Under the pieces are notes generated by a model that did no database searches, was not told where the DNA came from, and saw nothing but the letters and a program-made list of their open reading frames with translations. From an uncultured Bacteriovoracaceae bacterium (lineage in GTDB: Bacteria > Bdellovibrionota > Bacteriovoracia > Bacteriovoracales > Bacteriovoracaceae), in contig CATLOT010000021.1 in NCBI GenBank assembly GCA_950054155.1, forward strand, positions 1 through 62,839: a stretch of 62,839 bases of DNA. The letters run 5' to 3'. The position numbers and the translations under genes were made by a program. The first letter of the stretch is position 1, and each line of letters begins with the position of its first letter. Shown here in pieces: positions 29,694 through 51,770 of the stretch.

Positions 29694-30040
29694 TTTTGAG
29701 CTTCTTTAAGATTATCGAAAACGCGATAGGGGCAAGGCATCGCAAGACTTAAAGCGCGAGCACTTAAGCGCTCCTTCGCTTTAGCATTTTCACTTACCCG
29801 GATCAGGCCTTGGCATCTTTCCTTGAGTTTACCCTTATTTTCTTTAAACCAAATTCCAAGTCTTCTCTTTGCTTCGGGGGAAAAACTTTTTTCACCCCGT
29901 ACTTCTAAGATGATCTTAAAGTTATCTAAATTTAAAACTTCATCGAGAGCGGCAAAGAAAAGTTCTTCATCGCTCTCTTGACGAGGTGAGGTTAATTCAA
30001 TGTGGTGGGTGTTTCCCTTCCCTTTAAGAACTCTAAGCAT
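29678..30040 (-). CDS. Small cytoplasmic protein, possibly SpoIIAA/STAS-like
   Basis: 120 residues, no signal peptide. The alternating beta-alpha pattern (HHIELTSPRQESDEELFFAALDEVL, NFKIILEVRGEKSFSPEAKRRLG) with a final AMPCPYRVFDNLKEAQKWCQ resembles SpoIIAA/STAS-fold proteins that report on a neighbouring protein or act in the cell interior. The resemblance is general. It overlaps both neighbours (8 and 16 bases), so it is cotranslated with the MFS transporter and the lipase-like lipoprotein. Confidence 0.5.
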   Translation of the reverse strand: MLRVLKGKGNTHHIELTSPRQESDEELFFAALDEVLNLDNFKIILEVRGEKSFSPEAKRRLGIWFKENKGKLKERCQGLIRVSENAKAKERLSARALSLAMPCPYRVFDNLKEAQKWCQS

Positions 30041-31262
30041 GCTTTCTTTTACCGTCTCGATCGTAAACTTTGAAGAGAGAAATACTCACCATGGCAATAA
30101 GAAAGCTGATCAGAAAGACGACAACGGCATTGCTGACAAGATGGAGTTTAAGAGAAAGGGCTATAAGCCCCGCCCCTAAGGCGTAACCAAGAGAGTGGGC
30201 CACACTGGCAAGTCCTAACTTCTTTCCGAATATATTTGTTTTCTCAGAGTTGTGGCGGCTCTCACTTGTGAGGCTAAGATAGACTGGTGGAATAAACGCT
30301 GTTGCGACTGCAATGAAAGCTATAGCAATCCAAATACTTGTCTCATTATTGCTTGTCATCATGATTATTGTTCCCACAATGAGGGAGGTTGGACCTAAGA
30401 GGACACGAGGTTGCCAGCGGCTTTTAAAGACCATAACACTTAGTTGCTGTAAAATAACAGCGACAACACTGAGAAAGAGGATGATCTTGGCAAAGAGAAG
30501 GGTCGCTTCCTGGCCTGTAATATTAAGAACCGTTTTAAGGTGGTGGCCGAGAAAGCTGTGAAGAATTCCTATAAAGGCAGTGAAGGTAAGGGCGAGGAGA
30601 ATTGGATTTCTACTTTCCTTGAAGTTTTCTTTCCATCTTTTAAGGACTTTTTTGAGTTCAATACGCTCTGTCGATCCTTGTTGGGGAGTTGAAGAGTGTC
30701 GCAGAAGAAAGACTGTAGTGGCCAAAAAAGAGAGCCAAAGAGTTGAAGCATAGATGACCAACTCAAAGTTGACGCCTTTAGCGAGCACAAGGATTGGGCC
30801 TAGGATACGCCCTAGGTTAAGGCACATGCTATTCTTAGTGAGGACTCTTAGTTTGTCTTCATTAGGTATAAGGTCTAATTGCCAGGCCTGACTTACGGGT
30901 ACAACCGCTGAAGCGAGAAGACCATAGAGGATGCGGGCAGCGAAGACCATGGCAATTTTAACAGTCAGGGGTAAAGAAGTGTTCAAGAGGAAGAGAGCAC
31001 TAAAGAGGAGAAAGCTCAAGGTCATTCCAAGCATACCTATACTTAAAACCTTTCCCCTTCCTAGGGCATCACTCTTAGCCGCCCAGAAAGGCCCCATAAA
31101 AGCGAAAATCAAAGAACCTACACTTATAGCGGCGATAATATTGGCCGTTGTAACTCCTGTCTTTTCAGCAATGTAAGGAATGGTCGTATAGAGGACCATT
31201 TGAATGGCGCTAAAGGTGAGGCTATTCAAATAGGCGAGAGTAATCTTCTTTGAATTTTGCAT
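30033..31262 (-). CDS. MFS transporter, likely siderophore exporter
   Basis: 409 residues with about 12 predicted membrane segments and a motif-A-like loop (AAKSDALGRGKVLSI) between segments 2 and 3. A cytoplasmic charged loop (residues about 196-215) divides the two halves. It is divergent from an IucA/IucC-type siderophore biosynthesis operon with about 125 bp between the starts. MFS exporters of this size and position usually release the finished siderophore. Substrate specificity is inferred from context only. Confidence 0.8.
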   Translation of the reverse strand: MQNSKKITLAYLNSLTFSAIQMVLYTTIPYIAEKTGVTTANIIAAISVGSLIFAFMGPFWAAKSDALGRGKVLSIGMLGMTLSFLLFSALFLLNTSLPLTVKIAMVFAARILYGLLASAVVPVSQAWQLDLIPNEDKLRVLTKNSMCLNLGRILGPILVLAKGVNFELVIYASTLWLSFLATTVFLLRHSSTPQQGSTERIELKKVLKRWKENFKESRNPILLALTFTAFIGILHSFLGHHLKTVLNITGQEATLLFAKIILFLSVVAVILQQLSVMVFKSRWQPRVLLGPTSLIVGTIIMMTSNNETSIWIAIAFIAVATAFIPPVYLSLTSESRHNSEKTNIFGKKLGLASVAHSLGYALGAGLIALSLKLHLVSNAVVVFLISFLIAMVSISLFKVYDRDGKRKHA

Positions 31263-31316
31263 TGTGTCTCATTTGTGTTTAAAGCATATAACCAAAGTAG
31301 TTATTAGCGTTTAAAG

Positions 31317-31346
31317 TTTGACTTATCAAACACTTGTTCTTATGTT
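31317..31346 (+). promoter_or_regulatory. Sigma70-type promoter and inverted repeat upstream of the siderophore operon
   Basis: TTGACT (31318-31323), a 17-base spacer, then TATGTT (31341-31346). The -35 box lies inside the inverted repeat GTTTGA-CTTA-TCAAAC (31317-31332), a candidate repressor site. The transcription start would fall near 31353, downstream of the in-frame TTG at 31347, so translation must start later (GTG 31389). The site does not closely match the Fur consensus. Confidence 0.65.
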
Positions 31347-31388
31347 TTGTCCACCAGAATAAAAACCGAATTAAATCAAGGTTATAGA

Positions 31389-33551
31389 GTGTCTAGTTTG
31401 GCCAATGAACTTTCCTTAAGGTCTTTTTTAAATAGTTTCCTCAGAGACTATGCTGCCCATCATAAAGTAGAGGATGGCAAAGATGCGTTTTGTGTCAGGA
31501 CGAGAGTGCGCGATTTTAAGATCAATTATAAGGAGAAGTCTTCCTTAGGTTTTCATTCTTACGAGTCCTTGGAGGACCTTCATTTTGAAGGTTTTGTGAG
31601 TGCCATTTGCGAGGATTTTTGTGAGGGCGCTGATTCTAATGAGATTCTAAGTAAAATTATTAACAGTAGAGATAACCTGGCCTCTCTTTTAGAGCATCAT
31701 TCTGGCAACAAAATTAATGACTATATCTCCAGTGAGAGTTCCCTTCTTCTAGGCCATCCCTTTCATCCCTTTCCTAAGGCGAAGTGGGGTATGAGCGAAG
31801 AAGACCTCGTGAAGTTTGCTCCTGAGTTTCAGGGGAAGTTTCGTTTTGTCTATGCCGCTGTTGATGAATTTCTTTTGAAGAGTAATCTCAGTGCAAGCCA
31901 ACTTAAGAGAGAACTCCAAGATCTCTATGAATTTGAAGGTCTTAAAAGTGACTCCCTTCTCTTACCCTTTCATCCCTGGCAATGGGAGCGCATCTCTAAG
32001 CGTGGACTCACAAAGAGAGGAGAGGGGAAGAACGAGTGGAGCGCCCTTAGTAGCATGAGAAGCTATTATCATCCTCTGGCACCACTTCAAGTAAAGAGTT
32101 CCTTATCGCTAACTATTACTAATTCTCTTCGTCATCTCAATGAGAAAGAGCTTAAAAGAGGAAGTGAGCTTGAGCAGATTATAGTGGGAGAGGAGGCGAA
32201 CTCTCTTCTTGAATGTCTCAATGAGCCCTTCTATGCTGGCCTTTGTGACGAAGAGGGGAGCTTTCGGGAAGAGACTTCTCTTCAGTTCAGAGCGCCCTTT
32301 AAAGAGGGAATGCAACCCGAGAACACCTTCTTATTATCCTCTTATTTAGAAGTTCATCCCCTCGATCACCGCTCGTGCGCTCTAAGTGATATTGAAGAGC
32401 TTGCTAAGCTCTTTGAAGGAAATTTAAAAGCAGCGAGAAAGGAGTGGTTCTCTTCTTTTCTTAAGCACATTCTTGAGCCTTTCATGGACCTCGCCCACCA
32501 AAAAGGAATTCTCCTTGGCGCCCATCTGCAAAATATCATCATTCAAACAGAAGACCACAGACCTGTTAAGGTCATATACCGTGACTTTCAAGGAAGTGGT
32601 GTCACAAGTGAGCTCTATGAGAAAGAACGCTATGATTTCTTAGATCCAGAAAATGGCAATATCCTTGATGAGAAAAGTGTTAACAAAGTCTTTGGCTACT
32701 ATCTCATTGTAAATTCAGTTTTTGGGGTTATTGCTCAAGTTGCTAGAGGGAAGGCCTCTGTTGAAGAGGAGATGCTCATTGATTTAAGGACTTTTCTATA
32801 TAAGAGGAAAAATGAAGACTCCTTTGCGCGCTTCTTGGTGGAGTCTCCTGTTCTTTATCAAAAAGGGAATATGCGCTGTGCTTTAGTGGGCATGAACGAA
32901 AATAGCGCCCAGGACCCATGGAGTATTTACAATGAAATCCCCAATCCTCTTTGTGGTTTGAGAGAGCTCAAGAAACCAAGAAGTGGCAATCTCTATGAGG
33001 CCGATTTAAAAAGAGGGGCAAAGCTTAAAATCAGAAAGCTTGAGCTTTCTGATCTCTCCCTTTTTCACTCGTGGCACCATAAGGATTATGTAAAAGAATT
33101 CTGGGAGCTGGATAAGACCCGTGATGAGCTTGAAGCCTATATCACTTCTTTGCATCAATCTCCCTACCAATTACCTGTCATCGTGGAAATTAATGATGAA
33201 CCTATGGGTTACTATGAACTTTACTGGGCCCATGAAGATAGGCCCGCTCCCTATGCTCCAACAGAAGCCTACGATCGAGGACTTCACCTTCTGATTGGGG
33301 AAGAAAAGTTTCTAAGAACTCGCTATGTCTACGATAGTATGCTTCATGTGACCCAATTTCTCTTTGAGGAAGACGAGAGAACAAAAGCGGTGTGGGCCGA
33401 GCCCAGGGCCGATAACACAAAGCTCGTGCGCTTTTGTGAAAAGCTTCCCGGGTGGAAGTTTATCAAAGAGTTTAACTTTCCCCATAAGAGAAGCATGCTT
33501 CTTAAGTGTGATCGAGAATCTTTCTTTAAGGAGTATACGAATGCTCTCTAA
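31389..33551 (+). CDS. NIS siderophore synthetase (IucA/IucC) fused to IucB-type acyltransferase
   Basis: About 720 residues. Start GTG 31389 has AAGG 7 bases upstream; the in-frame TTG at 31347 lies before the predicted transcription start. The first about 520 residues form a NIS synthetase: GHPFHPFPKAKWG, LPFHPWQWERI, LGAHLQNIIIQ and VIYRDFQGSG. The last about 180 residues are a GNAT acyltransferase of the IucB/AlcB/RhbD type (LKIRKLELSDLSLFHSWHH, YELYWAHEDR, WAEPRADNTKLVRF). It would acylate a hydroxylamine and couple it to citrate. In aerobactin loci these are two genes. It overlaps the next synthetase by 11 bases. Confidence 0.9.
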   Translation: MSSLANELSLRSFLNSFLRDYAAHHKVEDGKDAFCVRTRVRDFKINYKEKSSLGFHSYESLEDLHFEGFVSAICEDFCEGADSNEILSKIINSRDNLASLLEHHSGNKINDYISSESSLLLGHPFHPFPKAKWGMSEEDLVKFAPEFQGKFRFVYAAVDEFLLKSNLSASQLKRELQDLYEFEGLKSDSLLLPFHPWQWERISKRGLTKRGEGKNEWSALSSMRSYYHPLAPLQVKSSLSLTITNSLRHLNEKELKRGSELEQIIVGEEANSLLECLNEPFYAGLCDEEGSFREETSLQFRAPFKEGMQPENTFLLSSYLEVHPLDHRSCALSDIEELAKLFEGNLKAARKEWFSSFLKHILEPFMDLAHQKGILLGAHLQNIIIQTEDHRPVKVIYRDFQGSGVTSELYEKERYDFLDPENGNILDEKSVNKVFGYYLIVNSVFGVIAQVARGKASVEEEMLIDLRTFLYKRKNEDSFARFLVESPVLYQKGNMRCALVGMNENSAQDPWSIYNEIPNPLCGLRELKKPRSGNLYEADLKRGAKLKIRKLELSDLSLFHSWHHKDYVKEFWELDKTRDELEAYITSLHQSPYQLPVIVEINDEPMGYYELYWAHEDRPAPYAPTEAYDRGLHLLIGEEKFLRTRYVYDSMLHVTQFLFEEDERTKAVWAEPRADNTKLVRFCEKLPGWKFIKEFNFPHKRSMLLKCDRESFFKEYTNAL

Positions 33552-35235
33552 AGAAGACTTTGAGAAAAATAATATCCTTCTTATTGAAAAGGCCATTGAA
33601 GAGCTTTGCTTTGAAGAGGCGTTTAATCCTACACCTTGTCAGGAAGGATACTTCTTAAAATCAAAGGAGAGGGAATATCGTTTTCAAGGCCGTTTTGGGG
33701 CCTGGGAAAATCTGCAAATAATGCCTCTAAGCCTCCATATCTATAAAAGCGAGCAAGAGGTTCCGGCGCGCTTTAGTGATTTCTGTAGGGATTTTCAAGA
33801 ACTCTTAGGTCTTACAGATGAGACATTAGCGGTTTTTATTGAAGAAGCTCATCAGACGCTCTATTGCATGGGGCTTGAGAAAAAGACTCCTTATCTTGTG
33901 AATGATAAATTCACGACCCTTGATCGCTCTTTTATGGGTCATCCTAAGATTATCTTGAATAAGGGGCGCCTTGGTTGGGGGAGTGCTGATCTTGAAGACT
34001 ATAGTCCAGAGAGGGCGAATGGTTTTTCTCTCATTTGGATTCATGTCAAAGAGGGACGCTTGATAAGCGGTCATTCAGACACCTTTAATAAGAGAGAGTT
34101 CTACCAAGATATTTTTACTCTCAATGAATGTCAGGAAATTGAGTCTCTCTTAGGATTGCCACTTGAGAAGTGGAACCTCATCCCTCTTCATCCATGGCAA
34201 TACGAAAAATATATAAAGATCCAATACCAAGAGGACTTTTATAATCAAGACTTCATTACTCTTGGGAAAAAAGGACCGAAGTTTTGGCCTCAGGCCAGTT
34301 TGCGCACCTTAAATTCACCTGAGCTTCCTGCTTGGGATATAAAAAGTGCGATTAGTATTCTCAATACAAGCTGTGTCCGCGGAATACCTGGAAAGTATAT
34401 CGAAACTGGTCATGAGATCAGTGAGGTCGTTAAAAAAATTGTTAATGAGGATCCTCTTCTCAAGAATAAAGTCAGGGTTCTCGGTGAAGTCTGGGGGCAG
34501 CGGGTCGCTCATCGCCACTTTGAAGAGATTCAAGGGGGGAGCTACCGCTATAAAGAACTTCTTGGAAGTGTGGTGCGAGAGAGCGTTGACTCTAAACTCA
34601 ATCCCCAAGAAAGTGCCCTTCCTACAGGTGTTCTCGTTCATCGCAGAGAAGACACTCAAGAGTACTTCATTAAAGAAATAATCAAGCAAAGTGGCATGAC
34701 ACCAAAGGAGTGGGTACGCGCTTACACTCTCTGTATTATAATTCCTCTCTATCATCTTCAGGCCTGCCACGGAATGGGTCTCGTTGCCCATGGCCAAAAT
34801 ACAATCCTTATTCATGAAAAAGGCAAACCAACGGGCCTGATTATTAAAGATTTTCATGGTGACTTCCGCTTGACCACTAATAGTCCTCATCAAGATGAAA
34901 AGGGTCTCAGAATGGTGGACAGGCTAATAGCGGGGCATCTTATTCACGATCTCTTCACTGGTCACTTTATTACTCTTCTTCGGTACCTCTCACGCAATTT
35001 AGCGGAATGTGGACTTCTTGGAGAGAGCGATTTCTACCGAGTGATAAGGGAAGAAATAAAGAACTATCTTGATGATCATCAATTATTAGACCCCAAACAA
35101 AATCTTCTTCGTCCTGATTTTGAAAAGGTTCTTGTTAATAGAGTTCGCTTTGTTGCGGGCTATAGTGAAACTGCAGAACGTCTTAAGCCTCTTCTTGGTC
35201 AGGCGATTGTTAATCCACTGGTGGAATATGAATAA
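33541..35235 (+). CDS. NIS siderophore synthetase (IucA/IucC family)
   Basis: 564 residues from ATG 33541. NIS motifs: MGHPKIILNKGRLGWG, LIPLHPWQYEKYI, HRHFEEIQGG, GLVAHGQNTILI and IIKDFHGDFR. These line the ATP and citrate sites in this family. As the second synthetase in the operon it would carry out the other carboxylate-amine coupling, as IucC does after IucA. It overlaps the upstream fusion gene by 11 bases and the N-monooxygenase gene by 8, so all are translationally coupled. Confidence 0.9.
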   Translation: MLSKEDFEKNNILLIEKAIEELCFEEAFNPTPCQEGYFLKSKEREYRFQGRFGAWENLQIMPLSLHIYKSEQEVPARFSDFCRDFQELLGLTDETLAVFIEEAHQTLYCMGLEKKTPYLVNDKFTTLDRSFMGHPKIILNKGRLGWGSADLEDYSPERANGFSLIWIHVKEGRLISGHSDTFNKREFYQDIFTLNECQEIESLLGLPLEKWNLIPLHPWQYEKYIKIQYQEDFYNQDFITLGKKGPKFWPQASLRTLNSPELPAWDIKSAISILNTSCVRGIPGKYIETGHEISEVVKKIVNEDPLLKNKVRVLGEVWGQRVAHRHFEEIQGGSYRYKELLGSVVRESVDSKLNPQESALPTGVLVHRREDTQEYFIKEIIKQSGMTPKEWVRAYTLCIIIPLYHLQACHGMGLVAHGQNTILIHEKGKPTGLIIKDFHGDFRLTTNSPHQDEKGLRMVDRLIAGHLIHDLFTGHFITLLRYLSRNLAECGLLGESDFYRVIREEIKNYLDDHQLLDPKQNLLRPDFEKVLVNRVRFVAGYSETAERLKPLLGQAIVNPLVEYE

Positions 35236-36520
35236 CGAAGTATATGACATCCTCGGGGTCGGAATAGGCCCTTTTAATTTAAGTCTAGCGGCCTTAAGTG
35301 AGCCTTTAGAGATCCTTAAGTGCAAGTTTCTTGATAATAAAGAAGAATTTCGCTGGCATCCCGAGTTGATGTTTTCTGATGCTACGATGCAGACTTCTTA
35401 TCTCAAAGATCTTGTGACTCCAGTAGACCCCACGAACCCCTACAGCTTTCTTAATTATCTCGTTAAAAAAGGCCAACTCTATCACTTTATGAATACGGAT
35501 CGTAAAGCGGTGACAAGAGTTGAGTTTGAAGATTATTGCCGCTGGGTCAGTCAAGAGTTGGGGGACACGCTGGAGTTCAACCAAAGTGTAAGAGAGGTCA
35601 CTTTTGACGGAGAATCCTTTCATATAAGAGGGGACCATTCTCATCACCAAAGTCGCCATCTCTGTATTGCGAGTGGCCCTGTTAAGAATATTCCTACCTG
35701 TGCTCAGGAATTCTTAGGAGAGGATGTCTTTCACGCCAAAAGTCCGCTTCTTCCTAAGGCCGACTTTACCGGGCAGAGAGTCCTCATTGTTGGAGGGGGG
35801 CAAACAGGTGTGGAGGTCTTTAAGAATGCTCTCGAAGAAAAGTGGGGGAAATGTGAAAGCCTCTGTCTGGTGAGTGGTCGCGAGAACCTTGTGAGTTTAG
35901 AAGAAGGACCTTTTACAAACGATATTTTTACCCCAGAATTTGTGAATAACTTTCACTCGCTTCCTCAAAAAAATAAAGATCGCTATACAAGCCAACTTCT
36001 TCTTGCAAGTGATGGTAACACTCCTGAGTTTCTCGATGAACTCTACCGCTCTCTTTACATGGATCGCTTCTATCACCATCGCTTTAGTCCTTATTGCCTC
36101 TGTCCCATGAGATGGATGGAGAAAATAGAAAAAGAAGAGAGTGGACTTCTTGTTACAGTAAAGAACCTTCTCAGTGGTCAATATGAGCGAAAGAGTTTTG
36201 ATCGTATTATCCTCGCAACTGGATTTCAGACAGCACTGCCTCAGTATCTAGAGCCCCTTCTTGACTCGATTGAAAAGGATGAACTAGGAAGACCTCTTAT
36301 TTGTAAGGACTACAAGCTTCAGTGGGATAATAAGGATCATCATATCTATGCCATGAATTATAGTCGTCATATGCACGGGATTGCCGATCCGCAAACAAGT
36401 CTTATGTCCTGGCGCTCTAGTGTCATTATTAATTCTCTTCTCGGGGAGAAGGTTTATAACACTCGTGAAATGGAGCCCTCCTTTTTAAACTTCTTTTCCC
36501 ATCAAGGATTTTCCTCATGA
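35228..36520 (+). CDS. N-hydroxylating monooxygenase (IucD/AlcA-like)
   Basis: 430 residues from ATG 35228. FAD motif VGIGPFNLSLAA at the N-terminus, then WHPELMFSDATMQTSYLKDLVTP.DPTNPYSFLNYL, which is characteristic of L-lysine N6- and L-ornithine N5-monooxygenases. NADPH motif VLIVGGGQTGVEVF at about residue 190, and ATGFQTALP in the C-terminal part. It makes the hydroxylamine that becomes the hydroxamate iron ligand. Resemblance in the substrate-side motif is closest to IucD, which favours a lysine-type substrate. It overlaps both neighbours. Confidence 0.92.
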   Translation: MNNEVYDILGVGIGPFNLSLAALSEPLEILKCKFLDNKEEFRWHPELMFSDATMQTSYLKDLVTPVDPTNPYSFLNYLVKKGQLYHFMNTDRKAVTRVEFEDYCRWVSQELGDTLEFNQSVREVTFDGESFHIRGDHSHHQSRHLCIASGPVKNIPTCAQEFLGEDVFHAKSPLLPKADFTGQRVLIVGGGQTGVEVFKNALEEKWGKCESLCLVSGRENLVSLEEGPFTNDIFTPEFVNNFHSLPQKNKDRYTSQLLLASDGNTPEFLDELYRSLYMDRFYHHRFSPYCLCPMRWMEKIEKEESGLLVTVKNLLSGQYERKSFDRIILATGFQTALPQYLEPLLDSIEKDELGRPLICKDYKLQWDNKDHHIYAMNYSRHMHGIADPQTSLMSWRSSVIINSLLGEKVYNTREMEPSFLNFFSHQGFSS

Positions 36521-38634
36521 AACTTTTTATCCTTCTCGCTTCTCTTATTTCCCTTCACGCCCAACAGCCTCTTGAGTCTCAAGATGATATCCTCTACGTT
36601 ACAGCGCGAAAAAAGAAAGAGAAGGTAAGTGATGTCCCTCAAAGTGTGACCAGAGTCAATAGCGATGAAATCGACAATATGGGCGCTACAAGCTTAAGGG
36701 AATTGACGCCTTTTCTTTCTAATGTTGATATTATTGGTTCAAAGTCAGGTCGTTATGTGACTCCTTATATAAGAGGTCAGGGAAATCAGGATCTCAATCT
36801 ACCGGAAGATATCTCTGTAGGGATCTATCTTGATGGTGTACCCATGCCTCGTTATGCCATTGATAATGAGCTTTTAGACCTTCAAAGTGTCGAGGTTCTT
36901 AGAGGTCCTCAAGGAACTCTCTTTGGTCGAAATAGTCAGGCAGGGGCTATAAACCTGATTACAAAGGACCCCATGAAGGGTCAGGGTCATAGCCTCACCT
37001 TAAAAGGGGGAAACCTTGGTCTTAGAGAATTGAGAGGCACCACCACTTTTGCTGGAAAAAAATGGGCTAATCGTTTGGCGATTAAAGTTTTTGAAGAAGA
37101 TGGATTTATTGAGGACAAGGTTTTAAATACCAAGCTTGGTGACGAGCAAAGCCAATCCTTTTTTAACTCTTTAAGCTATACCCCGACAGATTATTCTGAA
37201 CTTCAATTGAAAATAGGGGCTATTCAGCGAAAGGGGACAGATCCTCTTATTATTGATCGCCACCACCCAGAATATCCCGTATCAGGACAAGGCTTTGAAC
37301 CTCAGTTTGACACGGATATGGTGACGACAAGTCTTCAGTACCGAATTGATCGTGGCAGCTCTGAATTTAAATTCACTTCTAGTTTCAATTATTACGACTT
37401 TGATATCAAGTATGATGAGAGTGATTATTTCATCACTTATGATTATCTGGTTTCGATATCCAATACAACTGTCGCGGATTTATATATCAATGATCCAAGT
37501 AAGTTTACTCGCTCTATTAAAGAGTACCAACGTCAGCTCTTTAATGAAGCCCTTTTCAGTAAAAGGTTTTTCTCTTTTGATCTCACTGTTGGGGCAAACT
37601 TTTCGGTGAGTGATTATCGTTTACTCAGTGATGTTAATACTTTTAGTGGGGGAGCTTTTGTCGACCGTCGACAAGACGTGCGCTTAGAGACCAAGAACTA
37701 TGCTTTATTTACAGATGGGTCTTTTCAATTTAATGAAAAGCTTAGTCTCTCCCTTGGTCTTAGGTTTAATAGTGATCATAAGAACTTTAACTCTCTCCAC
37801 AGCTCAACAAGCCTCTCTTTTTATAAGCAAGAGAGCGATGAATCTTTTCAAGATTTAAGTGGTAGAGTTGCGCTAAATTACAAGAGAAGTGAGGATCATC
37901 AGCTCTACTTTAATTTTGCTCGTGGTTACCAAAGTGGTGGTTATCCTAGTTTTCACTTTAATAACTACAATGGTATCGCCCAAGATCAGCCGGCTTATGA
38001 TGAATCTTATTCTCATAACTTTGAAGTAGGCCAGCGTTTATGGCTTCTTGATAAGAAGCTCTTTATTTCAAATGCTCTCTTTTATAATGACATTAGAAAT
38101 AAACAAGTGCGCCTCAAAGATCCCACCAATAATCTCAGCTTCTATGCCAATATTGATACGTTGATCGTGGGAGGAGAAACTTCCCTTCAGTATAAGTTTA
38201 ATTCTGATCTTAGTTTCGGTGTACAAGCGGGCTACACTAAAGCGGTCTATAAAGAAGAGACGAGAAATGGCAGCACCCTTATTAGTGAGAGGGGAGCACG
38301 CGCTGCTAATATTCCCTACTGGTCAGGAGCTGCATTTGTTCACTATGAGCCTTATTGGAGTCGCTTCAATCTAAGCCCTTTTATCAGGGCCCAGTACCGC
38401 TACAAAGGAAAACGCTTTGGGGAGACCCTCAACCAAACGGTCATGGGAAGTTATGGACTCTTTGATCTGCGTGCTGGTGTTATCAATGAGCGCTTCAAGG
38501 TTACTCTCTATGGCGATAACCTCTTTGATAAGACCTATGAAACCCAGGCCTATTACTATTCAGGATTACAGCGCTATGTCTCTACACCCGGTATGCCCCA
38601 GCGCTATGGTGCGGAGGTGACCCTCTTCTTTTAA
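36517..38634 (+). CDS. TonB-dependent siderophore receptor
   Basis: 705 residues with a short signal peptide (MKLFILLASLISLHAQ). Plug domain: VTARKKKEKVSDVPQSVTRV (TonB-box-like region), LRELTPFLSNVDIIG, YIRGQGNQDLNLPEDISVGIYLDGV, VLRGPQGTLFGRNSQAGAINLIT. Barrel strands follow through YGDNLFDKTYETQAYY to the final YGAEVTLFF. It takes up the ferric siderophore made by the upstream genes. Start overlaps the monooxygenase stop (ATGA). Confidence 0.93.
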   Translation: MKLFILLASLISLHAQQPLESQDDILYVTARKKKEKVSDVPQSVTRVNSDEIDNMGATSLRELTPFLSNVDIIGSKSGRYVTPYIRGQGNQDLNLPEDISVGIYLDGVPMPRYAIDNELLDLQSVEVLRGPQGTLFGRNSQAGAINLITKDPMKGQGHSLTLKGGNLGLRELRGTTTFAGKKWANRLAIKVFEEDGFIEDKVLNTKLGDEQSQSFFNSLSYTPTDYSELQLKIGAIQRKGTDPLIIDRHHPEYPVSGQGFEPQFDTDMVTTSLQYRIDRGSSEFKFTSSFNYYDFDIKYDESDYFITYDYLVSISNTTVADLYINDPSKFTRSIKEYQRQLFNEALFSKRFFSFDLTVGANFSVSDYRLLSDVNTFSGGAFVDRRQDVRLETKNYALFTDGSFQFNEKLSLSLGLRFNSDHKNFNSLHSSTSLSFYKQESDESFQDLSGRVALNYKRSEDHQLYFNFARGYQSGGYPSFHFNNYNGIAQDQPAYDESYSHNFEVGQRLWLLDKKLFISNALFYNDIRNKQVRLKDPTNNLSFYANIDTLIVGGETSLQYKFNSDLSFGVQAGYTKAVYKEETRNGSTLISERGARAANIPYWSGAAFVHYEPYWSRFNLSPFIRAQYRYKGKRFGETLNQTVMGSYGLFDLRAGVINERFKVTLYGDNLFDKTYETQAYYYSGLQRYVSTPGMPQRYGAEVTLFF

Positions 38635-43224: not shown

Positions 43225-44112
43225 CTATAGGGCGGTAAAGGTGGTGAAGGTGAGGGCCAGAGTTTTAAGAAGGGGAGAATTCTGGCTAGGCTTGAGAAGG
43301 CTTTGATCACTATAGGAGAGGCTTAGGGAGCTCTCCTCGGCTATCATATAACTCAAGCTAGTCGACCATGCCGTGGTGATCATTTTTTGGGCCTTTGAAA
43401 ATCCTGTTATTTCTCGCGCGCCCATGTGGGTTGTTGTGAGATTGAGACCTAGACGAAAATCTGAAAGACTTTTTCCAGCACCAATCATTGCACTCCAGGA
43501 TGGTTTGATGGCGACCCTCATTTCTTGGGGTTCGCTAAAGGTGCGCTGATAAAAATGTTGAAGCTTCACACTTCCAAGCCAATCCCAAGAGGGATAAGTT
43601 TTGATAAAGGCGAGACCAATTGACGTTGCTGCAAGCCCGGCACCTCTTGAGTCTGTCCTTAAGGGATTGTTGGCATCATAAGTTGAGGGGGAAGTGGGAA
43701 AGCTTTGCTCAAAAAAGAGGAAACCACGAGGCTTCCAAGGGCTGTAGCCTAATTCAGGCAGAAACTCATAGGCGGCTTGAAGAGAAATATCACCAAGGCC
43801 TGATGAGCTCTCCTCTCTTCCCTGTGTTTTGGTGGTGTTCTTTATAAGGGGAAGTGTCGCACCGATTTGCCAATAGCTTCCCAGAAGATAACTTGCCGAT
43901 AGAACCAAGGACTCGCGAACTTGAGAATTGCGAACGCCTATAAGATTACCGTCACTATCCGTCTGCTCTGTGGTGGCGCTATTAGAGGCAACAGCACTTA
44001 TTTGAGTCTTGACATCACCAGTGATGAGAGAGGGCATTGAGCTTCCCCCACCACAACAACTTGCCCCAAAGGTACTCTTGAAGAAGAGGAAGATTACAAG
44101 GTAAATCCCCAA
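43225..44112 (-). CDS. Exported barrel-like protein with N-terminal Cys-Cys-Gly motif
   Basis: 295 residues. Signal peptide (MGIYLVIFLFFKSTFG), then ASCCGGGSS at the start of the mature protein, then beta-rich strands (VLSASYLLGSYWQIGATLPLI, GDISLQAAYEFLPELG, FSLSYMIAEESSLSLSYSD) that fit an outer-membrane channel such as the MetA-pathway phenol degradation type. The Cys pair next to the cleavage site could bind metal or form disulfides. It is last in a four-gene operon and overlaps the preceding lipoprotein gene by 19 bases. Function unknown. Confidence 0.6.
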   Translation of the reverse strand: MGIYLVIFLFFKSTFGASCCGGGSSMPSLITGDVKTQISAVASNSATTEQTDSDGNLIGVRNSQVRESLVLSASYLLGSYWQIGATLPLIKNTTKTQGREESSSGLGDISLQAAYEFLPELGYSPWKPRGFLFFEQSFPTSPSTYDANNPLRTDSRGAGLAATSIGLAFIKTYPSWDWLGSVKLQHFYQRTFSEPQEMRVAIKPSWSAMIGAGKSLSDFRLGLNLTTTHMGAREITGFSKAQKMITTAWSTSLSYMIAEESSLSLSYSDQSLLKPSQNSPLLKTLALTFTTFTAL

Positions 44113-44525
44113 AGGACCTCCTGCATGTCATCTCCATTTGTTACTTGAAAGTGAATATCCCAATAGCCCGGCATGGTGAAGAAGACTTGGCTTGCTTCAT
44201 AGAGACCGACGCCGACTTCTTCTACAGTGACAGGAAAACTTCCATGACCCATAGTGGGCATCCAAAGCATGAGAGTAAGGTCACCTTCAATTGAAGTCGG
44301 TCTATCCTCACTATTCGTCACTAGTATTTGTATTCTCGATTCACTTCCAATATTAGGACCACTTCGCCATTTGGGAGTGAAGTTATAAAGTCCACCAGGA
44401 AGGCTTAGTCCTGATTGCAGCTGTTCGCTTGCAATCAGGGGTGTTCCTTGTTTTTCTTCTAAGAAGGGAGAATCTCCACAAGAGTTAAGAAAAATGAGGA
44501 GAAGAAGAGTTAAATTCTTAATCAC
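44094..44525 (-). CDS. FixH/YtkA-like lipoprotein
   Basis: 143 residues with lipobox LNSC (Cys near 16). The mature part has the immunoglobulin-like YtkA/FixH pattern: RIQILVTNSEDRPTSIEGDLTLMLWMPTMGHGSF, GVGLYEASQVFFTMPGYWDIHFQV. The PTMGHG and FTMPGYW blocks hold Met and His residues that in related proteins bind copper. It overlaps both neighbours by a few bases (4 upstream, 19 downstream). It is a smaller cousin of the protein encoded just before it. Confidence 0.65.
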   Translation of the reverse strand: MIKNLTLLLLIFLNSCGDSPFLEEKQGTPLIASEQLQSGLSLPGGLYNFTPKWRSGPNIGSESRIQILVTNSEDRPTSIEGDLTLMLWMPTMGHGSFPVTVEEVGVGLYEASQVFFTMPGYWDIHFQVTNGDDMQEVLWGFTL

Positions 44526-44929
44526 TTGAGAGGAACCTTAGAGATAATTTGAGAGATAAGAGTATCTCCCTCTTTAAGATCGACTCTAATTTCCCAGTGT
44601 CCTCTCATTCCGCCCATAAAGAAGCGGGCTTCATCGACTTTAAAGACACCTTCGCTTACTTCAGTGAAGCCAAAGAGTGGTCCTCCATGATTATGACCAT
44701 GATGCATGATCATCCACGAGTAAATATCGATTTCTTCTTTTGGGCTGATTGGCATCATAGTGGTCTCATCCAAAATCGTCAGGGTAAAGGCAGAGGTATC
44801 ATTGAGCAGGGGTCCTTTCGTCCACTCCAAAGAGGCGCAGTAAGGGGTGCCTGTGAACTTGAGTTCACATTCTTCTGCCAAGAGAGAGACGTTAAAGAGA
44901 GTGATCAATACTAAAAAAAGTGTTCTCAT
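44522..44929 (-). CDS. Exported FixH/YtkA-like His-rich protein
   Basis: About 135 residues from the ATG at 44929, which follows AAAGGA and begins a normal signal peptide (MRTLFLVLITLFNVSLLA). An upstream in-frame ATG (44992) would add 21 residues, overlap the thioredoxin-like gene and spoil the signal. It contains CELKFTGTPYC, then WMIMHHGHNHGGPLFG, a His cluster suited to metal binding, and FFMGGMRGHWEIRVDL. It has the same layout as the following lipoprotein, so the two are probably tandem paralogues. Confidence 0.65.
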   Translation of the reverse strand: MRTLFLVLITLFNVSLLAEECELKFTGTPYCASLEWTKGPLLNDTSAFTLTILDETTMMPISPKEEIDIYSWMIMHHGHNHGGPLFGFTEVSEGVFKVDEARFFMGGMRGHWEIRVDLKEGDTLISQIISKVPLK

Positions 44930-44945
44930 TTTTATTCCTTTAGAT

Positions 44946-45497
44946 TTAACGTTGAATATAACAACCAAGGGCCCGCGCCACTTTGGTTTCAATAGGTTTA
45001 CCTTCTTTTAATTCACTAAGGGCTTTTTGCAGATAGAACTGATCGGCCCTTTTAGGGTTTCTTGAATTTGTCGCCCCTCCTTGAAAGAGGAAATCGCCCT
45101 TTTGATTTAGGACAAAGACATGAGGGGTTTTGAGGGCCTTTAAAAGATTGGCGGCCTTAAGTTTCTTATCAAGATAAATCGGAAAATCGATGGTGAACTG
45201 ATCAAAGTATCTCTTTGCTCGTTTGAGGGGTGTGCTCTTAGAGGAGTGAAATCCAATGAATTGAAACTCAGGGTAACTTTTTTGAAGTGAGTTGAGGTGA
45301 TCAAAGTGTCCTTGAGAGCATGGGCAGGTGCTTGAGAGGAAGTAAATTACTGTTGCCAAATTTTTTGGGGAGTCTGAGTTGATTTGTTTGGGGGTCAATG
45401 ACTTTTGATCTTTGATCAGGTCAAGAACTTCTTTTTGAAGATTGGCATGAGTTAAAGAGGAGTAAATTCCAAATAAGACAAAGAAGAGTAATTTCAT
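44946..45497 (-). CDS. Exported thioredoxin/redoxin-like protein
   Basis: 183 residues with a signal peptide (MKLLFFVLFGIYSSLTHA). Thioredoxin-fold core ATVIYFLSSTCPCSQGHFDHLNSL with a CxC-type active site (CPC) in place of CxxC, the cis-Pro loop TPHVFVLNQKGDFLFQGG, and a C-terminal ALGCYIQR Cys. Redoxins with this ending occur with copper or cytochrome assembly proteins. It is first in a four-gene operon with two FixH-like proteins and a Cys-Cys barrel, which suggests redox or metal handling in the envelope. Confidence 0.75.
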   Translation of the reverse strand: MKLLFFVLFGIYSSLTHANLQKEVLDLIKDQKSLTPKQINSDSPKNLATVIYFLSSTCPCSQGHFDHLNSLQKSYPEFQFIGFHSSKSTPLKRAKRYFDQFTIDFPIYLDKKLKAANLLKALKTPHVFVLNQKGDFLFQGGATNSRNPKRADQFYLQKALSELKEGKPIETKVARALGCYIQR

Positions 45498-45566
45498 GCC
45501 ATTTTTCTAACAAAGAAGGGGATCTTTGTTAATTGAAAATCTTAGGAAGCAGGTTAGAATAGGGAA

Positions 45567-49791: not shown

Positions 49792-50060
49792 AACTCTATT
49801 TTAAGGGCAGGTGATGATTTCATCATAAAGACAAGGCTAAGTGCTTGTTTCGCAAATTATAAGAAAGCCTGATCAAGAACTTAGGGGCCGAAGCACACAG
49901 AAAGTGGGCAAAAAATTGAGAAATATTCACAAAGTGTAATGAAGTTCATTTAGTCAAAAAATTGTTAATTCTTAATCTAAGTTATGAAAAAGGTTAGGTT
50001 TTAGTATTTAGCGCTGACTCTCTTAATATTCAAAAGAGGACGGGGTTTACCCTAGTGAGT

Positions 50061-51770
50061 ATGAAAATCTTGAAAACGAAACAATTATTGCCGATTCTTC
50101 TCTTTTGCTTTTTGGGCAGCGGATACCAAGCAAAGAATCCCCTGTCCATGTTAACGGGTAAAAAGAAGATTAAGACCCCGGAGTACATTTCATTGTACGC
50201 TTCTTCTTCGGAATCGAAGGAAGTCCCCGTTCGGGGGATTGTAGGGATTCCTCGTTACGTTCTCTTAACAAGAGGCTTCTTCTTAAGAAGACCCGTTGAG
50301 GCGCGCTTGGTTTATGACAATCAAATGGCCTGTACTTTTAAGGCGCGGAGAAGTTTTGGTCTCCTTATAAAGTACTACTTTGATGAGTGTAGTGATGGCT
50401 CTCGTCCAGGAGATCGCATTAGTGTTAATGAGAGTGTTGCCCTTGAGGTGGAGAGTCGCTCCAATGTCACGATGAAGGCGGTCGTCAAAGTTTATGAATT
50501 TATTCGCGATGGAATCAAACTTCCCAATATTGGTGCCCAGGCCGGGCAGTTTTTAAAGTTTGATGGTGAGTATTGGGTGGCCTCAGAGGGGCTTCCCGAT
50601 GGTCAAGAGCAAGGACAAGTCCTGATTTGGGATGGCACCGGATGGATGCCCACTGAAATTGAAGGACTTCAAGGTGAAGCCGGTGAGCAAGGGCCACAGG
50701 GTGAGGCTGGGCCCCAAGGGGAAGTCGGTCCTCAAGGTCCTGCTGGTGCTCAGGGGGAAGTCGGTCCTCAGGGTCCTGCTGGTGCTCAGGGTGAAGTCGG
50801 TCCTCAAGGTCCTGCTGGCCCACAAGGGGTTGCTGGTCCTGTCGGTCCAAAAGGAGATACGGGGGCTCAAGGTGATGTAGGCCCTCAAGGTCCTGCTGGT
50901 CCAAAAGGGGATACGGGAGCTCAAGGTGTTGCAGGTCCTCAGGGTCCGGTTGGTCCTCAAGGTGTTGCGGGTCCTCAAGGTCCGGTTGGTCCTCAAGGTG
51001 AAGTCGGTCCTCAAGGTCCTGCTGGTCCAAAAGGGGACACGGGAGCTCAAGGTGTTGCGGGTCCTCAAGGTCCGGTCGGTCCTCAAGGCCCTGTTGGACC
51101 ACAAGGTGAGAAGGGTGAAAAAGGTGACGACGCCACAGTGAGCCTGATCGCAGGAGCTGGGATTGTTGCTGGAGATAATATCGATGGAACGATCAGTTCT
51201 GTTGGGACCATTGCCGTTGATGTGGGAACTGGCGCAGGTCAGATACCAAGACTTGATAGCAATGGAAAACTTCCTGAAGCAGTTCTCCCTGATAGTGCGG
51301 GGTCGGGTTCAGGTGTTGGCGAAATTAAAGTCGCCTTTATTAAAGATGTAAGACCAAGTGGTACTCACGGTGGTGGATGTACCGCAGGGACTTGGCACCA
51401 AAGAGAGCTTAATACGATTGAAGGGGAGAGTTCTCTTGTGACTCTCGCGGCTAATCAATTCACCTTACAGCCTGGTGAATACCTGGTTGAAGTTATTGCT
51501 CCAACCTACCTCGATAATGTCCATAAGGCCGTGCTCTTTGATGTGAACGCCGGTGCGATTGCAAAGGTTGGTTCTACCGGACGAACCCATACAAGCTATG
51601 GAGGTATGAATTCAAGTTTCATTGAAGGTCACATTACCCTCAGTGCAGCGACGACCTTTGAAATTCAGCACCGCTGTACCAGTACCAGAGATATTGTGGG
51701 CTTTGGTGTGGCCGCGAATTTTGGAGTTGATGAAGTCTATACTCAAGTGAAGGTTACCCGAGTGAAGTAG
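50061..51770 (+). CDS. Collagen-like triple-helix surface protein with phage-tail-like C-terminal knob
   Basis: About 569 residues from ATG 50061 (GTG 50055 in frame). Signal peptide [19 protein letters not shown]. An N-terminal beta-rich domain (about residues 40-155) is followed by two GQxLxxDGxxW motifs ([22 protein letters not shown]), as in phage tail fibre proteins, then about 51 Gly-X-Y triplets (residues about 202-356) rich in GPQGPAG and PKGDTG. The C-terminal 140 residues hold [19 protein letters not shown] and a jelly-roll-like ending ([20 protein letters not shown]), resembling viral and bacterial trimeric knobs. A surface or appendage protein is likely. Confidence 0.85.
50664..51128 (+). 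repeat. Collagen-like coding repeat
   Basis: About 465 bp encoding uninterrupted Gly-X-Y triplets. Blocks of GGTCCTCAAGGTCCTGC.GG and CCAAAAGGGGATACGG recur with few changes, so the region can expand or contract by unequal recombination. Confidence 0.95.

Follow-up and report, generated by a model that had tools for sequence, protein, structure and literature searches.

The locus at 43225-45497 (-) raises the question of what four adjacent genes for envelope proteins do together, and whether they handle copper, in a Bacteriovoracaceae bacterium whose phylum includes the predator Bdellovibrio. To our knowledge, the passage of copper across the outer membrane to periplasmic chaperones is poorly known. 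The original prediction, made on the window (the whole stretch of 62,839 nucleotides analysed here), proposed a four-gene set at this position, and all four open reading frames are found there. The features referred to below are as follows:

45498..45566 (strand not assigned): short intergenic stretch upstream of gene A, common to the divergent amidohydrolase-like gene; presumed from the sequence to be the promoter.
45497-44946 (-): gene A, the first gene transcribed; exported redoxin of 183 aa with STCPCSQ.
45318..45326 (-): CPC motif of A, residues 58-60, invariant in the A alignment.
44929-44522 (-), counted from the ATG: gene B; exported YtkA-like protein of 135 aa, WMIMHHGHNHGG.
44684..44716 (-): Met/His motif of B, WMIMHHGHNHG, residues 72-82; M73, M75, H81 and G82 invariant.
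44525-44094 (-), GTG start: gene C; YtkA/CrdA-like lipoprotein of 143 aa with LNSC/GDS, PTMGHG and FTMPGYW.
44241..44261 (-): MPTMGHG of C, residues 89-95; M89, P90, M92, G93, H94 and G95 invariant.
44160..44180 (-): FTMPGYW of C, residues 116-122; F116, M118, G120 and W122 invariant.
44112-43225 (-), TTG start: gene D; predicted outer-membrane beta-barrel of COG4313/FapF fold, 295 aa, with STFGA/SCCGGG.
44053..44058 (-): Cys-Cys at residues 19-20 of D, where the mature N-terminal segment begins; invariant in the D alignment.

By inspection, a plausible signal sequence begins each of the four products. The tight packing with overlaps that had been described holds for B and C (4 nt, GTGA) and for C and D (19 nt, an overlap that is identical in L029-L033), but A and B are 16 nt apart; A-D are most likely one operon. 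The window's flanking trypsin-like gene and amidohydrolase do not accompany the cluster in relatives. Elsewhere in the window, positions 30033-38634 hold what appears by eye to be a siderophore cluster (MFS exporter, two IucA/IucC-like synthetases, N-hydroxylase-like enzyme, and TonB-dependent receptor), and positions 50055-51770 encode an exported 571-aa protein with a long collagen-like GPQGPAG repeat.

Profile searches detect D in 176 of 369 Bdellovibrionota genomes, and co-occurrence was counted over 74 loci carrying D from many families, with A scored if it lay within four genes. A accompanies D in 66 of these loci (four of the eight loci without A are near a contig edge), a YtkA-like gene lies near D in 73, and 38 have at least two such genes. 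The order A-B-C-D is seen in the window, L029-L033, L078, and L113, while other loci demonstrate the orders B-A-C-D (L034, L138, L144), A-C-D-B (L037, L042, L044, L081, L082, L088, L096, L097, L114), or, in many cases, A-C-D. The gene set persists through rearrangements of its order, which is what selection for a common function would produce, and recurrence on this scale is more than chance. Independent scattering of the genes among relatives, named in advance as evidence against a common system, is not seen for A, C, and D, although B is also found by itself in a few genomes (L036, L038, L039). A scan of genome contigs returned named relatives of C at three loci, in Bacteriovoracaceae, Halobacteriovoraceae, and another Bdellovibrionota MAG; a search of plasmids returned a single weak archaeal redoxin match for A and no match for D.

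C belongs to the YtkA-like family PF13115 (E 1.7e-7, 32.2 bits against a cut-off of 25.9), as do 12 of 12 relatives, and its FixH match is below cut-off. The description of B and C as FixH/YtkA-like proteins therefore stands for C as regards YtkA only, and for B it stands indirectly: B itself has no PF13115 match, but 5 of 13 relatives match at E<=0.1 (best 3e-4), and B is homologous to C with the same signature. The predicted structure of C (pLDDT 75.5, built from four sequences) has Helicobacter pylori CrdA as its top match (Foldseek E 5e-5; Z 12.3, rmsd 2.8, 102 aligned), followed by the FetP/P19 periplasmic copper-binding proteins (Z up to 9.9), with a chain of the cbb3 oxidase NOH complex also among the matches (Z 8.0). 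A profile of C finds CrdA as well, at a weak but significant E of 2.7e-4. Along this alignment, with residues counted by hand, M89, M92, and M118 of C fall on Met69, Met72, and Met99 of CrdA, and H94 falls beside Met75; CrdA has a described methionine site (PMC9182242), and the residues of C aligned with it are invariant among C sequences. In B, the long run of the His cluster HHGHNHGG, which had been singled out earlier, is not conserved, but W72 is invariant together with the four residues listed above; B also has a Cys pair (C21/C31). Across C or B genes, the motif WMPxMGHG is replaced by RMxCCG in four loci (L040, L041, L076, L083) and by SCCG in L110, all in certain families of the phylum, a change that, as read from the motifs, is a swap of Met/His for Cys-Cys, both soft-metal ligands.

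The model of D (pLDDT 67.5, pTM 0.70) is a 12- to 13-stranded barrel closest to FapF (Z 24.0) and to the COG4313 channel 4rl8 (Z 23.6), and the profile of D matches FapF at E 6e-6. PF13557 matches D only below its cut-off of 22 (15.7 bits, E 0.016) and matches 1 of 15 relatives. The Cys-Cys pair is retained in 72 of 74 D genes. The pore of COG4313 channels is filled by about 14 N-terminal residues that fold in from the periplasm (PMC4493636). D has an N-terminal segment of the right length, and its Cys-Cys pair, lying in the stretch that corresponds to this plug, may sit in the pore, with the caveat that residues 1-25 are modelled at pLDDT <50.

A is assigned by Pfam to DUF6436 (E 6.9e-8, 32.7 bits against a cut-off of 27.3; 14 of 14 relatives) and is AhpC-TSA-like. 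Its best solved relatives are 2cvb and 2ywi, the former matched by the A profile at E 3e-22, in an alignment that spans most of A and includes the C-terminal GCxI cysteine (GCYIQR in A). CPC is present in all 66 A genes and GCxI in 65 of them. The likeness to DUF6436 and to the 2cvb/2ywi-type redoxins thus extends over the whole domain, but the CxxCP of the latter is xxxCPC in A, the first Cys having been lost and a new one gained after the Pro. A is not a Sco protein: the motif is CPC rather than CxxxC, and SCO1-SenC (PF02630) gives no match for A at E<=1 or for its relatives at E<=0.1. Neither is A a replacement for Sco, which is present in 254 of the 369 genomes, the host among them.

In relatives, a RegB/RegA-type kinase and regulator adjoin the cluster in seven genomes of six genera (L029, L034, L037, L088, L089, L113, L139); these calls are best NCBIfam matches (NF033792, NF033791) below curated cut-offs. 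At a density of one such pair in roughly 3300 genes, and with about 14 genes inspected at each locus, chance alone would by our own estimate give about 0.3 cases over the 74 loci, with the caveat that related genomes are not independent. Sco and PCuAC genes adjoin the cluster in four loci (L103, L137, L138, L139; Pfam E 2e-23 or better), and L139 shows the order D-C-A followed by RegB-RegA-x-Sco-PCuAC-YtkA. L137 also holds a CueR gene (167 bits, cut-off 147) together with one for a copper P-type ATPase (612 bits, cut-off 397), and in L030 a gene of the CsoR family, matched best by the copper sensor RicR but below cut-off, lies upstream of A; CueR and CsoR are each linked at one locus. Two genomes carry an exported 600-640 aa protein with no Pfam family of note near the cluster (L030:9367-11289, L089:12889-14694); the member in L030, a His/Met-rich protein of 640 aa whose gene stands with the CsoR-family gene 12 nt ahead of A, has a HDHG/HGG start and Met/Gly/Asp repeats. 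The suggestion that the set handles copper or another soft metal gains support from the fold and profile match of C to CrdA, the linkage to Sco, PCuAC, CueR, Cu-ATPase, and CsoR-family genes, and the Met/His to Cys-Cys swap.

The host genome (3.52 Mb, 99.9% complete) contains a single heme-copper oxidase gene, for a fused cbb3-type subunit, beside which are ccoQ/ccoP/ccoG-like genes (named from sequence) and a P-type ATPase. COX2 was not found in this genome at E<=1e-3 and is present in all six congeners compared (G001-G006): within the genus, the CuA oxidase has been lost here and only cbb3 is left. The one Sco gene of the host adjoins PCuAC on another contig (contig 46, L134:6374-7817) and RegBA is unlinked to the operon, which is a second copper-type module beside Sco-PCuAC. 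The host Sco/PCuAC pair is preceded by a gene for a 148-aa protein with GHDMEMP and no Pfam match, perhaps another YtkA/FixH-like copper protein.

The reading that we favor, with a probability of roughly 0.6, is that the operon serves copper handling and trafficking at the outer membrane and in the periplasm, supplying or buffering the Sco/PCuAC route. From the gene families, their conservation and linkage, and the predicted folds, we infer the metal, the direction of its movement, and the roles of the cysteines as follows. B, as a soluble protein, and C, tethered by its lipid, would carry Cu(I), and D would be a pore that lets copper or a copper complex across the outer membrane. The Cys pair in the N-terminal plug of D might bind copper or gate the pore, while A would hold these cysteines and copper reduced. 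The system would feed or buffer Sco/PCuAC delivery, which in the host would lead to the cbb3 oxidase. Linkage to RegBA and Sco/PCuAC favors supply, whereas linkage to CueR, Cu-ATPase, and CsoR and the kinship with CrdA favor export, and we lean weakly towards uptake and delivery. A more specific version, namely a dedicated relay in which D is a COG4313-fold copper channel, loaded or gated by the Cys-Cys of its N-terminal plug that A would hold reduced, and passes copper on to C and B, is a tentative proposal that we regard as rather doubtful in its full form.

The alternative that survives best, though one we would not bet on, is copper detoxification, in which B and C capture surplus Cu(I) in the periplasm, D aids its exit, and A protects thiols, much as CrdA acts with CrdB-CzcBA in H. 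pylori. CrdA, the nearest solved relative of C, serves copper export (PMC9182242), and the CueR, Cu-ATPase, and CsoR-family neighbours respond to excess copper. However, Sco/PCuAC and RegB/RegA are the commoner neighbours, and no RND pump or TolC-type gene recurs in the cluster; RND genes near a few loci were not judged to be partners above chance, being common in these genomes.

A non-copper envelope system, in which D imports a hydrophobic compound or exports a polypeptide with A as its disulfide handler and B and C as structural partners, is unlikely. It would suit the barrel, since COG4313 channels have otherwise been associated with hydrophobic substrates (PMC4493636) and FapF exports amyloid subunits (PMC5557850); it would also suit the fact that no copper gene adjoins the cluster in the window or in most loci. 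Against it speak the invariant Met/His residues on the CrdA site, the Cys-Cys swap, and the several kinds of copper-gene neighbours.

A role in assembling the CuA site of cytochrome c oxidase, suggested by the Sco/PCuAC neighbours and by the pairing of a YtkA-domain lipoprotein with a thioredoxin-fold protein, as for CtaK with Sco in Bacillus subtilis (PMC13344008), is very improbable in general and is ruled out as the sole role in the host because COX2 is missing there; assembly of the cbb3 CuB site is possible. COX2 is absent from 20 of 176 D-positive and 39 of 193 D-negative genomes, a contrast too weak, and too confounded by incomplete genomes, to tie D to the CuA oxidase, and a comparison with heme-copper oxidases at large is uninformative with COX1 in 348 of 369 genomes.

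Set beside known systems, the copper-handling operon proposed here shares with CrdA of the crdAB-czcBA system of H. pylori the domain fold of C and the position of its Met cluster. Unlike C, CrdA has no His and no lipid anchor, and it is partnered by an outer-membrane efflux protein and an RND pump where the present set has a redoxin and a COG4313-type barrel. In B. subtilis, YtkA domains act in the loading of oxidases with copper, and CtaK, like C, is a YtkA-type lipoprotein, tied to copper delivery and accompanied by a thioredoxin-fold partner (PMC13344008). CtaK, however, serves a CuA site, which the host lacks the COX2 to form, and the CtaK and YcnJ systems have no barrel or CPC redoxin. 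Sco-PCuAC operons likewise combine a thioredoxin-fold protein with small copper carriers and adjoin the cluster in four loci, but the Sco site is CxxxC and their locus is separate in the host. The COG4313 channels and FapF share with the model of D a 12-stranded barrel whose first strand is preceded by a further segment; D differs from them in its Cys-Cys at the mature N-terminus, its copper-gene neighbours, and its sub-threshold PF13557 match. Studies of CtaK and YcnJ (PMC13344008, PMC12362106) and of CrdA (PMC9182242) cover the domain and not the operon. The earlier statement that no described system has this composition stands in so far as the four-gene composition was not found in the literature searched, although the individual parts are members of, or similar to, known families of copper chaperones and channels. 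The operon is akin to the copper-chaperone operons of the periplasm, to which it adds the barrel and the CPC redoxin as new elements; a small operon kept across the phylum and combining Cu(I)-type carriers with a pore and a redoxin would provide a concrete, testable copper route.
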